Below, in pieces: positions 11,636-17,749 of a stretch of DNA of 46,355 bases (position 1 is the stretch's first letter; every line of letters starts with the position of its first letter). The position numbers and the translations under genes were made by a program. This DNA comes from Thiocapsa sp. (GTDB lineage Bacteria; Pseudomonadota; Gammaproteobacteria; Chromatiales; Chromatiaceae), in contig NZ_JAABRP010000021.1 of NCBI RefSeq assembly GCF_011390875.1, positions 1-46,355 of the forward strand, read 5' to 3'. The notes beneath the pieces were generated by a model. That model did no database searches, had not been told where the DNA came from, and worked only from the letters and a program-made list of their open reading frames with translations.

Positions 11636-11866
11636 TAGGATGGGTAGAGCGCAAGCGAAACCCATCCAGCCTACGCCAAAGGCATCAGACCGAAACTCGG
11701 CCACCCAGCAACCCGGGTGTTTGGAGGATGGGTTTCGCTGCGCGCTACCCATCCTACAATGCCAACTTGGCGGTTTGGAGGATGGGTTTCGCTGCGCTCT
11801 ACCCATCCTACAATGGCAACTCGGCGGTTTGGAGGATGGGTTTCGCTGCGCTCTACCCATCCTACA
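11636..11866. repeat. 54-bp tandem array of GGATGGGT palindromes, cluster 3
   Basis: It opens with GTAGGATGGGTAGAGCGCAAG and then has three copies of GGAGGATGGGTTTCGCTGCG followed by CTACCCATCCTACAAT, repeating every ~54 bp. Each copy is a complete palindromic hairpin (GGATGGGT / ACCCATCC), unlike cluster 2 where inner copies lack the closing arm. It lies between moxR and the HAD gene. Confidence 0.88.
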
Positions 11867-11889
11867 TCGATCGATGTGTTCTCCTTGCC

Positions 11890-13623: not shown

Positions 13624-14532
13624 ATGCCGAACCTGAACATGAAGCACCTGCGCTACTTCTGGGCCGTAGCGACCCATGGGTCCATTGCCCGCGCATCGGA
13701 GGTCCTGCACCTCACGCCCCAGACCATCAGCGGGCAGCTGCGCGAGCTCGAAGAGCAGATCGGGACCAAGCTGTTCGGCAAATCCGGACGCAACCTCGCC
13801 CTGACCGAAAGCGGCCAAGTGGTGTTCTCCTATGCCGACGAGATCTTCAGACTGACGGGGGAGTTGCAGGACGTGGTCTCGGGCCGCCCGCCGGCCTCCG
13901 GCATCACCTTCAGGGTCGGAATCGCCATGGTCGTGCCCAAGCTGCTCGCTTATCGCGTCTTGGCGCCCGTACTGGCCCTCCCGGACCCGGTGCGTCTGGT
14001 CTGCCACGAGGCACCACTGACCGACCTTCTGGCCGATCTCTCGGTGCACAAGCTCGACCTGGTCCTTGCCGATAGCCCGGTGAATCCGGCGCTGAACATC
14101 CGCGCCTACAACCATATCCTGGGCGAATCCGGAATCAGCTTTTTCGCCGTCCCGGAGCTCGCGGCACGCTATCGCGAGGACTTTCCCCGATCACTCAACG
14201 GCGCGCCGATGCTGATGCCGACGGGCTCGAGCGCACTGTATCGCGCGCTCGAGCATTGGTTCGACCGCCACGACCTGAAACCGCGCATCGCCGCGGAGTT
14301 CGAAGACCGCGCGCTGATGAAGGCCTTCGGCGAGGCCGGGGTCGGGATCTTCACAACACCGACCGCTGTGGAACAGGACATTCTCGACAAGTACGGGGTC
14401 GCACTGATCGCCCGGGTCGACGACATCAAGGAGCGGTACTACGCCATCTCGGCCGAGCGCCACATCAAGCACCCGGCGGTCTCGACGATCACGGAGTCAG
14501 CCCGGCATGACCTATTCGGCCCGCAGAGTTGA
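13624..14532 (+). CDS. nhaR: NhaR-type LysR-family transcriptional activator
   Basis: 302 residues. The N-terminal winged helix-turn-helix (MKHLRYFWAVATHGSIARASEVLHLTPQTISGQLRELEEQIG) has the LTPQTI(S/T)GQ signature that separates NhaR from other LysR proteins. Later NhaR-like words include HKLDLVLAD, FEDRALMKAFGEAGVGIF and ISAERHIKHPAV. In E. coli NhaR activates the Na+/H+ antiporter gene nhaA in response to Na+ and also regulates pga. No nhaA is in the window; the next genes on the same strand are an HvfA-like peptide and a Kef-type antiporter. The start at 13624 gives the typical length; an ATG at 13639 is the alternative. Identification is confident, the target is unknown. Confidence 0.88.
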   Translation: MPNLNMKHLRYFWAVATHGSIARASEVLHLTPQTISGQLRELEEQIGTKLFGKSGRNLALTESGQVVFSYADEIFRLTGELQDVVSGRPPASGITFRVGIAMVVPKLLAYRVLAPVLALPDPVRLVCHEAPLTDLLADLSVHKLDLVLADSPVNPALNIRAYNHILGESGISFFAVPELAARYREDFPRSLNGAPMLMPTGSSALYRALEHWFDRHDLKPRIAAEFEDRALMKAFGEAGVGIFTTPTAVEQDILDKYGVALIARVDDIKERYYAISAERHIKHPAVSTITESARHDLFGPQS

Positions 14533-14736
14533 CGCGCCCGAAACGCCCGGCGTGTGGACCCGGTCTGCCTCGATAGCTTCGCCGGCTAGGCCAACGCGCT
14601 TTTCAGCGCCGAGAGCAGTGACTCCGTTGAACCCTTGAGGTTCTGACGTATCAAATCCGAGCGTGTTGCTGCGATAATGGTGACGGATGTCCGATTCCGG
14701 AAGCCACCCTTCTTATTTCGACACGAGGACACGACC
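14533..14736. promoter_or_regulatory. Leader region of the HvfA-like gene
   Basis: About 200 bp between nhaR and the peptide gene. A GATAAT that could serve as a -10 box sits near 14672-14677, without a good -35 at 17 bp, so another sigma factor is possible. GAGGA at about 14725 precedes the ATG at good spacing. No other gene is visible. Confidence 0.3.
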
Positions 14737-15051
14737 ATGAACAAAAAAACCATCACACCGGCCGCCGCCCTTGTCGGTGCCGCCATCGTCGGTAGCCTCG
14801 GCGCCGTCGGCGTTGCGCAGGCCTCCGGCAACCCGTTCGCCGCTCAGTCGCTCGATACCGGCTACATGCTGGTCGCCGGTGCCGACACCGAAGGCAAGTG
14901 CGGCGAAGGCAAATGCGGCGGGACCAAGGATGCGGAAGGCAAATGCGGGGAGGGCAAGTGCGGTGCCGATAAGGGAACCGAAGGCAAGTGCGGCGAGGGC
15001 AAATGCGGCGCCGACAAAGACAAGGAAGGCGCATCCGGCAGCACCACCTGA
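14737..15051 (+). CDS. HvfA-type RiPP metallophore precursor with six EGKCG motifs
   Basis: 104 residues from the ATG at 14737 with a ribosome site (GAGGA) just upstream. The N-terminus is a Sec-type signal peptide (MNKKTITPAAALVGAAIVGS, cleavage after about AQA), then the NPFAAQSLDTGYML segment typical of HvfA leaders, then three spaced pairs of EGKCGEGKCG giving six cysteines, all in EGKCG context. In the Haemophilus HvfA family the cysteines in these motifs are converted to oxazolone-thioamide groups by the DUF692 iron enzyme HvfB with HvfC (DUF2063), and the product binds copper. Neither hvfB nor hvfC nor a DoxX gene is within the window, so this is an orphan precursor here. The family call is strong; modification and metal binding are inferred. 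Confidence 0.85.
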   Translation: MNKKTITPAAALVGAAIVGSLGAVGVAQASGNPFAAQSLDTGYMLVAGADTEGKCGEGKCGGTKDAEGKCGEGKCGADKGTEGKCGEGKCGADKDKEGASGSTT

Positions 15052-15328
15052 AGCGACCTCGTCGACGGTCTCCTCGGGAGGTCGATATCTACGGGATCGC
15101 CCCGGAGGATTTGAGCGGCATGGGCGGCGCGAGCGCGCGCCGCCTAATCTCACCGTCGTCGAGATACTGCGCGACACCCGGCGTTCTTCGATGAAAGGCG
15201 CACCCCTTCTGAAGTAGACTCCATGGCGGGTGATGCGGTTGGCCGGCATCCGAAGCACGATCGGCGCGAGGCCCCCACATCAACCGATCAAACCGGGGGC
15301 GATCGATGAGTGCGGCAGGTCGAACGGC
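15052..15328. other. Intergenic region after the HvfA-like gene
   Basis: A possible weak hairpin CGACCTC / GAGGTCG (15055-15085) follows the stop codon by a few bases but has no T-run. The remainder up to the antiporter shows no gene on either strand that I would defend. Confidence 0.35.
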
Positions 15329-16990
15329 GTGATTGAAATAACCGATGCCTTTGCGGAGCTTGCCGTCCTTCTGGTGATCGCGGCCGTTGCTGGCGCGATT
15401 GCGGTGCGCCTGAAACAGCCCCTGCTGATTGCGTACATCGTCGTCGGCATCGCGGTCGGACCGGCAGGTTTCTCGCTGGTCCAATCCCACGATCAGATCG
15501 AGGTGCTCGCCCAAGTCGGCGTGGCGGTGCTCCTGTTCGTCGTGGGACTGAAGCTGGACCTCACCCGGGTGCGCGATATCGGCCCGGTCGCCTTGGCCAC
15601 CGGATTGGGCCAGCTCGCCTTTACGATCGTCTTCGGCTTCCTGATTATCCTGGCATTGGGCAAGGGACTGGTCGAAGCACTCTATGTCGCGGTCGCACTG
15701 ACCTTCTCGAGCACCATCATCATCGTCAAGCTGCTCTCCGACAAGGGCGAGCTCGACGCGCTGCACGGACGCATCGCGATCGGTTTCCTGATCGTGCAGG
15801 ATATTGCCGTCGTGCTGGCGATGATGGCGATGAGCTCTCTCGGCTCGGGCGCCGACGCATCGGCCTGGGCTGTCGCGATCTCGCTGGTGGGGCGCATCAC
15901 GGCCGCAGCGGTGCTGATGTTCGTGCTGATGCGTTACGTGCTCCCGGATCTCCTGCATCGTATCGCGCGCTCGCAGGAGTTGCTCCTGATCTTCGCAATC
16001 GCCTGGGGAACCGGGCTCGCAGCGCTCGGGGAATGGGTTGGATTCTCCAAGGAAGCCGGGGCCTTCCTGGCCGGTTTCTCGTTGGCATCGACCGCCTATC
16101 GCGAGGCGATCAGCGCGCGACTGACGGGCATCCGCGACTTTCTGCTGTTGTTCTTCTTCATCCATCTCGGAGCCGAGCTTGACCTGACGACCCTCGGTGC
16201 CGAGGTCTGGCCCGCGATCTGGCTGTCGTTGTTCGTGCTCATCGGCAATCCGTTGATCGTGATGGCCATCATGGGCGTGATGGGCTATCGCAAGCGCACA
16301 GGGTTTCTGGCGGGCCTGACGGTCGCGCAGATCAGCGAATTCTCGATCGTCTTCGTGGCGATGGGCATCAGCCTGGGCCATGTCGGGGTCGAGGCGCTCG
16401 GGCTGACGACCTTGGTGGGGCTGATCACCATTACCCTGTCGACGTACATGATCCTGTACTCGCATCCCCTGTACCGCACCCTCGCGCCTCTGCTCGGGCT
16501 ATTCGAACGACGCCGGCCTTACCGGGAGCTCATGGGCGACAATCCATCTTCGGACGGAGCGCAGCCGGAGGTCCTCGTGATCGGGCTTGGCCGCTACGGA
16601 CTCCGTCTGGCACGACGTCTGCGCGACGAAGGCCTGCAGGTCATCGGTGTGGACTGTGATCCTGACGTCGTGCGGCGCCTGAGCGGCGCCGGCTTGAATG
16701 TCCGCTTCGGCGATGGCCACGACGCTGCCTTTTTGGATAGTCTCCCCATGGAGGGGCTGAGCTGGGCCATCAGCACCCTGCCCGACCTGGATTCAAACCG
16801 AGTACTGCTCTACGCCCTGGCCGAGCGACGTTTCTCCGGCGAGATCGCCGTCGTCGCCCGCGACGACGCGCAGGGCGCACAGCTCTGGCAGATCGGTGCG
16901 CCGGTCATTCTGTACCCCTTCCGAGATGCGGTGGACTTCGCCGCGGACAACATCATGACCATCATGCGCCGCCACAGGCAGGCCATTTGA
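15329..16990 (+). CDS. Kef-type CPA2 cation:proton antiporter with RCK/TrkA-N domain
   Basis: 553 residues from a GTG at 15329. About twelve hydrophobic helices form a CPA2 antiporter domain (residues ~5-380; motifs AYIVVGIAVGP, GFLIVQDIAVV, EAGAFLAGFSLAS, FFFIHLGAELDL). A C-terminal Rossmann RCK_N domain follows (about 415-540) beginning VLVIGLGRYGLRLARRL, which would bind NAD(H) or another nucleotide and gate transport. Kef-type proteins exchange K+ (or Na+) for H+ in the inner membrane. The first conserved residues (EITDAFAELAVLL) start right after the GTG; the more distal ATG at 15230 gives a non-conserved extension. AGGT lies about nine bases before the GTG. Its neighbour two genes upstream is nhaR, which suggests a role in cation homeostasis. 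Confidence 0.85.
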   Translation: MIEITDAFAELAVLLVIAAVAGAIAVRLKQPLLIAYIVVGIAVGPAGFSLVQSHDQIEVLAQVGVAVLLFVVGLKLDLTRVRDIGPVALATGLGQLAFTIVFGFLIILALGKGLVEALYVAVALTFSSTIIIVKLLSDKGELDALHGRIAIGFLIVQDIAVVLAMMAMSSLGSGADASAWAVAISLVGRITAAAVLMFVLMRYVLPDLLHRIARSQELLLIFAIAWGTGLAALGEWVGFSKEAGAFLAGFSLASTAYREAISARLTGIRDFLLLFFFIHLGAELDLTTLGAEVWPAIWLSLFVLIGNPLIVMAIMGVMGYRKRTGFLAGLTVAQISEFSIVFVAMGISLGHVGVEALGLTTLVGLITITLSTYMILYSHPLYRTLAPLLGLFERRRPYRELMGDNPSSDGAQPEVLVIGLGRYGLRLARRLRDEGLQVIGVDCDPDVVRRLSGAGLNVRFGDGHDAAFLDSLPMEGLSWAISTLPDLDSNRVLLYALAERRFSGEIAVVARDDAQGAQLWQIGAPVILYPFRDAVDFAADNIMTIMRRHRQAI

Positions 16991-17311: not shown

Positions 17312-17749
17312 ATGGCTTCGAACTACGAAAGCTTCTTTAACCTCGGCCGCTTCGGCGTCGTCGGACACACCACAGCCAAGCCTTTTCCGCTCCTCAGTTA
17401 TCGGCGGCTGAAGGCGATGGGGAAAACCGTCTATCCGATCGACCCCAGCACTATGCTGGTCGACCGGGATCCCGCGTATCCCACGCTCGCGTCCTTACCC
17501 CAACCCATCGATGGTCTCATCATCGAGGTGCCGAAGGCGGAAAGCGCGGGCTGGGTTGCCGCGGCCGCGGATGCAGGGATCGGTCATGTCTGGATCCACA
17601 TGGCCCACGAGACCCCGGAGGCGGTGGCGCTCGCCGCGGAGAAAGGCATCAATCTACGCACCGGGACCTGTGCCGTTATGTATCTGAATCCCGGACCGTC
17701 CGTTCACGGCATCCATAAGCTCGTCATGAAGCTGACCGGGAAGTATTGA
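17312..17749 (+). CDS. CoA-binding domain protein
   Basis: 145 residues comprising one Rossmann-like CoA_binding_2 domain: an FGVVGHTTAKPFP nucleotide-binding loop near residue 14, conserved YPIDP and YPTLASLPQPIDGLIIEVP, and VWIHMAHETPEA. Small proteins of this kind (YccU-like) bind CoA but have no established enzymatic activity. A cysteine lies in LRTGTCAVMYLNP where family members usually have CP(V/L)MY, so the family cysteine is kept but the following residue differs. It stands alone, convergent with the exported protein gene to the right. No clear ribosome site is visible; the start is chosen because the domain begins within a few residues. Confidence 0.8.
   Translation: MASNYESFFNLGRFGVVGHTTAKPFPLLSYRRLKAMGKTVYPIDPSTMLVDRDPAYPTLASLPQPIDGLIIEVPKAESAGWVAAAADAGIGHVWIHMAHETPEAVALAAEKGINLRTGTCAVMYLNPGPSVHGIHKLVMKLTGKY

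Follow-up and report, generated by a model that had tools for sequence, protein, structure and literature searches.

A captophorin precursor gene of Thiocapsa probably left behind by loss of hvfB, with the likely modifying enzymes encoded at a remote locus

The closest described systems are oxazolin, fontiphorin and the bufferins. Oxazolin of nontypeable Haemophilus influenzae (hvfABCX) has a signal peptide and three paired motifs with six cysteines in all (PMC13419390), and so resembles the Thiocapsa peptide analysed here, which starts with a Sec-like signal sequence. According to that report, H. influenzae HvfB requires HvfC, the two proteins were inactive when purified separately and then mixed, the HvfBC pair favours the full-length peptide, which makes the signal peptide leader-like, and its product is a 5-thiooxazole (PMC13419390). 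The likeness extends to the enzymes, as HvfB and HvfC equivalogs are encoded in the Thiocapsa genome, but the Thiocapsa genes are unlinked and a relic of hvfB lies beside hvfA. Fontiphorin (fonABC, Fontimonas thermophila) shares with the Thiocapsa system the EGKCG-type repeats and the Arg-Arg and Asp-Phe residues of the enzyme, whereas the fon genes form one cluster and the Thiocapsa precursor and enzymes are encoded apart (PMC13097082). Fused to MBP, fontiphorin bound as many as four atoms of Cu (PMC13097082). An earlier reading of the locus, made from the sequence only, had assumed conversion of the cysteines into oxazolone-thioamides; later work replaces this chemistry by 5-thiooxazole (PMC13097082, PMC13419390).

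The bufferins Buf1 and Buf2 are similar in that an MNIO enzyme has a DUF2063 partner, and their precursors have a Sec signal (PMC12452194), as the Thiocapsa peptide seems to have. For both Buf1 and Buf2, sizeable shares of the precursor genes have no MNIO gene next to them (Antoine et al., PMC12452194), and the legend of Fig. 3 of the same paper refers to stand-alone genes, with panels including Buf_EGKCG. Its authors suggest that such unlinked precursors may stay unmodified or may be substrates of an enzyme encoded elsewhere (PMC12452194). A precursor gene without an adjoining MNIO gene, as in Thiocapsa, is of a known kind; enzyme relics, reciprocal gene loss at two loci and unlinked hvfB and hvfC, as in the Thiocapsa genome G118, were not found described in the parts of the Results of PMC12452194 that were consulted. 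A literature search for Thiocapsa and MNIO found no papers, and the literature on split or in-trans MNIO precursors held nothing on point among the matches listed.

The window, i.e. the whole stretch of DNA analysed, comprises 46,355 nucleotides of a Thiocapsa sp. assembly (G000; 3.98 Mb, 390 contigs, 91.5% complete). The features discussed below are:

13624..14532, + strand: LysR regulator of the nhaR type, bounding locus 1 on the left (NF008284; beside hvfA in 8 Thiocapsa genomes)
14629..14678, + strand: conserved upstream block with GAACC-N5-GGTT, ATCAAA and GCTGCGATAAT (upstream alignment)
14737..15051, + strand: captophorin precursor of the hvfA type with six EGKCG motifs (104 aa)
14737..14823, + strand: Sec-like signal peptide, residues 1-29, perhaps leader too (by eye)
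14830..14868, + strand: NPFAAQSLDTGYM segment (NPF..GYM; sequence, aligned among orthologues)
14890..15009, + strand: three pairs of EGKCG motifs, the core (NF050137 match starts at 14890)
15070..15145, + strand: relic of hvfB, codons about 27-52 (DNA and translated alignment)
15230..16990, + strand: Kef/CPA2-like antiporter ORF, start uncertain (TrkA_N domain in Pfam; NCBIfam matches all below cut-off)
17312..17749, + strand: CoA-binding protein, bounding locus 1 on the right

The ORF has the apparent signal sequence, the NPF...GYM segment and the six EGKCG motifs in three pairs described in the sequence-only reading, and its assignment as HvfA-type was borne out by the NCBIfam model KCGExKCG_twice (NF050137; 51.5 bits, cut-off 19.5, E 5.8e-14). 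With the HvfA equivalog NF050188 the peptide scored 66.9 bits, under the cut-off of 95. Because the hvfA products of G118 and G122, both encoded next to hvfB, also miss this cut-off (59.2 and 22.0), we do not claim the narrow equivalog; judged by its sequence, the peptide is an HvfA / Buf_EGKCG captophorin precursor of the wider family defined by NF050137. It has no linked MNIO or DUF2063 gene, linkage being usual in the family, not defining. With a charged start, a hydrophobic stretch and AQA, residues 1-29 look by eye like a Sec signal, and this region is closely alike in the alignment of seven orthologues. By analogy with HvfA (PMC13419390) it perhaps serves as a leader too. The mean dN/dS of hvfA was 0.24 over the 21 pairs of seven locus-1 orthologues and that of hvfB 0.11 over 21 pairs, the pairs not being independent in either case; for the window gene against its six orthologues the values ranged from 0.14 to 0.38. 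Part of this signal may be older than the loss of hvfB. Six EGKCG motifs are present in five of the seven locus-1 hvfA genes, five in G119 and four in G023.

Shortly past the hvfA stop, 76 bases (15070-15145) show 81.6% DNA identity to hvfB of G118 (E 2e-17). In a translated search (tblastn) the segment 15024-15167 aligned with HvfB at 43.8% identity over 48 aa (40.4-41.2 bits); elsewhere in the window no alignment exceeded 23.1 bits, and 100 shuffled windows gave at most 29.3 bits. The similarity to G118 continues for 17 bases downstream of the hvfA stop codon. The window then lacks the start and the first 26 codons of hvfB, as well as everything beyond codon 52. Neither an intact DUF692 nor an intact DUF2063 gene was found in the window, and assembly-wide matches at E ≤ 0.001 were confined to contig C156. 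The earlier statement that no modification gene lies in the window was correct for intact DUF692 and DUF2063 genes and overlooked the relic. The term "orphan" likewise holds locally, but a relic stands directly after hvfA, and in the congener G118 the hvfB gene at this place is intact.

The neighbours had been named as nhaR and a Kef-type antiporter gene, in agreement with the profile matches. NhaR scored 271 bits with NF008284 (cut-off 219) and is 92-96% identical to the copies of Thiocapsa marina, T. roseopersicina and others; the antiporter ORF contains the TrkA_N domain. In the seven related locus-1 stretches the antiporter was detected only as a fragment, in G023 (E ≤ 1e-8). Pairing of nhaR with hvfA as a general feature of the wider group was ruled out by three loci, those of T. 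imhoffii, Gammaproteobacteria INTA.AUR.070 and Thiocapsa ALJrbin.11, where no hvfA match was found beside an 84% identical NhaR.

The 160 bp preceding hvfA were aligned for the eight locus-1 copies. The element GCTGCGATA is present in all eight, ATCAAA in seven and the GAACC-N5-GGTT dyad in only five. The block at 14629..14678 is a possible promoter/operator of hvfA's own. The genome contains a single instance of its pattern (14629-14655), and the reversed control gave 0, so that no wider regulon can be read from it, and inspection by eye recognized no promoter element common to locus 1 and locus 2, the second hvf locus described below. Farther upstream, at 11709-11870, the window contains a 54-base unit in three tandem copies, the later ones sharing 87-89% identity with the first; related stretches occur at other places in the window and also in G118.

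Profile searches of the assembly (E ≤ 0.001) revealed one DUF692 match, C156:19140-19928, and one DUF2063 match adjoining it. The sequence-only reading had offered, as one option, that the enzymes act from another locus and had proposed a genome search for DUF692 and DUF2063 genes; the side-by-side pair on C156 supports this option, modification in trans being what homology would predict. A genome devoid of DUF692, named there as part of a refuting outcome, was thus not what the search showed. The DUF692 protein passed the HvfB equivalog NF003818 (440.7 bits, cut-off 360) and remained below the BufB cut-off (265.6 bits, cut-off 310). The DUF2063 protein matched the HvfC equivalog NF050145 with 316.5 bits (cut-off 142). 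The solved structure closest in sequence to the C156 HvfB is 3BWW (E 1e-76). The enzyme's passing the HvfB and not the BufB cut-off distinguishes the system from the bufferins, as does the absence of a DUF2282 match; a DUF2282 bufferin (Buf1) as the real substrate was rejected, since the genome gave no such match at E ≤ 0.001.

Enzymes acting on Lys-Cys (EGKCG) substrates conserve Arg15, Arg16 and Asp249-Phe250 (Gadgil et al., PMC13097082). Because Ala variants of these Arg and Phe residues remained active (PMC13097082), the residues mark a class and are no proof of the substrate. The corresponding motifs LGLRR and ERDF are present in the C156 enzyme, in the G118 enzyme and in the four family relatives that were aligned, of which two come from separate loci of G105, one from G058 and one from G084. 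Four more distant DUF692 paralogues (G023, G071, G116, G117; 36-39% aa identity to HvfB), which we provisionally call BufB-like, have GLK and ERDQ instead. As far as sequence can tell, C156 encodes an HvfB/HvfC pair of the class that fits an EGKCG substrate. On C156, genes for an ECF-type sigma factor, a response regulator and a DUF302 protein precede hvfB and hvfC; a histidine kinase gene and then a KatG-like gene (named by eye) follow. The DUF302 gene (L007 6532-7038) immediately precedes hvfB in G000 and G102, and in G122 it lies upstream of hvfA; DUF302 is a possible extra part of the system.

Among 11 genomes of the genus a match to the window peptide was found in 9, DUF692 in 10 and DUF2063 in 10. 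Locus 1 (HAD, CDGSH, nhaR, hvfA, CoA-binding) is retained in eight of them: G000, G102, G023, G121, G118, G117, G119 and G071. Of these eight, G118 keeps an intact hvfB behind the locus-1 hvfA, its product sharing 92% aa identity with the C156 enzyme. G071 has hvfB there in pieces, and the remaining six have truncated copies with five different end structures. In G071 (L110 7242-8158) hvfA is cut near codon 39 and fused in frame to hvfB codons 61-160, and a piece of hvfC follows the fusion. The remains of hvfB in the six truncated cases are:

G000: codons 27-52
G121: to about codon 19; a later piece is also present
G102: to about codon 34
G117 and G119 (shared): to about codon 19, then a jump into downstream DNA
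G023: to about codon 96

Six structures among the seven genomes without an intact locus-1 hvfB suggest more than one loss, although successive deletions on one lineage could explain some of the differences between the ends.

At locus 2, hvfB and hvfC are both intact in G000, G102, G121, G117, G119 and G023, and no hvfA match was found in the stretch around hvfBC in these six genomes. A search with three hvfA queries for an hvfA relic between DUF302 and hvfB in the same six genomes found none; elsewhere it returned just short, chance-like matches. In G118 locus 2 has an intact hvfC and no hvfB, the hvfB (L168 9452-10321) and hvfC (L104 8754-9608) of this genome being about 2.7 Mb apart. G122 has the linked order DUF302-hvfA-hvfB-hvfC. 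In the single-contig genomes the distance from the locus-1 hvfA to hvfB is 1.69 Mb in G121 and 3.70 Mb in G023, or 1.95 Mb in the opposite direction if the G023 contig is circular.

A second full hvfA (type B) is kept in G102, G117 and G121, so the locus-2 precursor may have been displaced there, not lost. The type-B hvfA (L107 2811-8821 in G117; L108 8255-8536 in G121) has an upstream region that differs from that of locus 1, and pieces of the locus-2 neighbourhood lie near it. The type-B gene lies about 23 kb from hvfB in G121 and about 4.3 kb from the sigma-regulator-DUF302 set in G117. In each of G118, G119 and G023 just one hvfA match was found. The search for other EGKCG peptides that had been proposed for the window genome gave one further copy, C49:1437-1649 (L008), on a 3.6-kb contig; it breaks off behind its first EGKCG, and none of the NCBIfam models matched it at E ≤ 1. 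This copy adjoins a frame that by eye resembles a methyltransferase. Two weak matches were dropped, one at C383:43-195 (E 0.09), where the ORFs of at least 60 aa at the contig start contain no EGKCG, and one on C113 (E 8). In the hvfA tree (150 bases) the type-B copies join the C49 copy (support 80) and then G122 (85). The hvfB trees do not split locus 1 from locus 2: supports at key nodes were 17-35 and, in the FastTree tree, 0.25-0.52 at most key nodes, the G071 fragment having just 300 bases.

Intact hvfA, an intact HvfB-type enzyme and HvfC occur together in 8 of the 11 Thiocapsa genomes, and the other three (G071, G116, G120) have neither an intact hvfA nor an intact HvfB-type enzyme (Fisher p 0.006, a value that ignores shared ancestry).

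We consider it likely, with a probability of about 0.78, that the window encodes a captophorin precursor stranded by the loss of hvfB, modified in trans by the locus-2 HvfBC pair and exported to sequester copper. An nhaR-linked hvfABC operon would have lost hvfB, and probably hvfC too, with hvfA left behind, while hvfBC would have survived intact at the second locus after their own hvfA had gone from beside them. HvfA would be expressed separately, from its own promoter. The HvfB-HvfC pair encoded on C156 would bind HvfA in the cytoplasm via the signal/leader sequence and, as homology predicts, convert its six Lys-Cys sites to 5-thiooxazoles in trans; the modified HvfA would then pass to the periplasm via Sec and sequester copper there, export and copper binding again being expected by homology. 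The pathway would thus probably work now from separated parts. We also lean towards a history in which an hvfABC operon present twice was eroded by loss into unlinked, mutually dependent parts, an arrangement in which the free hvfA could be dosed independently of the enzymes. The unlinked parts are hvfA and hvfBC at separate loci and, in one species (G118), hvfAB and hvfC, although HvfB and HvfC depend on each other in H. influenzae. Since G102, G117 and G121 keep a second hvfA, the loss is not fully reciprocal there.

A peptide that functions unmodified, as a plain periplasmic Cys-/Lys-rich metal binder, would account for the lack of an enzyme gene adjacent to hvfA, and metals can be bound by unmodified Cys-rich peptides. 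We regard this as unlikely: the genome does hold a matching HvfBC pair, which would have no full EGKCG substrate but for the window peptide, because the only other EGKCG copy found in this genome, on C49, ends after one motif; and hvfA is broken or absent in the three congeners without an intact HvfB-type enzyme. The truncation of the C49 copy, together with its failure to match any NCBIfam model, also argues against the window hvfA being a decaying leftover in a cell where HvfBC works on another precursor encoded elsewhere. That a second copy exists on C49, that full type-B copies are present in G102, G117 and G121, and that G119 and G023 have just five and four EGKCG motifs speak in favour of decay, yet in the window copy the frame is intact with six motifs, the dN/dS values are in the range given above and the upstream block is conserved, and we think decay quite improbable.

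The assembly, at 91.5% completeness and in 390 contigs, could lack a further operon, and a complete hvfABC set in the missing part might serve the window peptide or make it redundant. The single-contig genomes G121 and G023 are split likewise, with no hvfA match adjoining an HvfB-type gene, which leaves a missing operon a very slim chance.

If the window precursor is indeed modified by the remote HvfBC pair, gene-neighbourhood mining can miss substrate-enzyme pairs. Thiocapsa is a natural series in which trans modification is directly testable: the genes are linked in G122, G118 has hvfAB and a distant hvfC, six genomes have hvfA and distant hvfBC, and in G071 the genes are broken.

In a sample of 116 genomes of the family, EGKCG matches were found in 33. 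DUF692 was present in all 33 of these versus 45 of the 83 others (p 1.3e-7, again ignoring shared ancestry). Precursor and DUF692 matches are separated by no more than about 400 bases in 29 of these 33 genomes. The other four are G000, G023, G102 and G105, the last having a weaker precursor match that adjoins one DUF692 gene. Further EGKCG precursors away from a DUF692 match were seen in G058, G084, G105 and G066 (in G066 at a contig end). In G109 (C1:533089-533875) the DUF692 gene beside the EGKCG precursor consists of two pieces in different frames.
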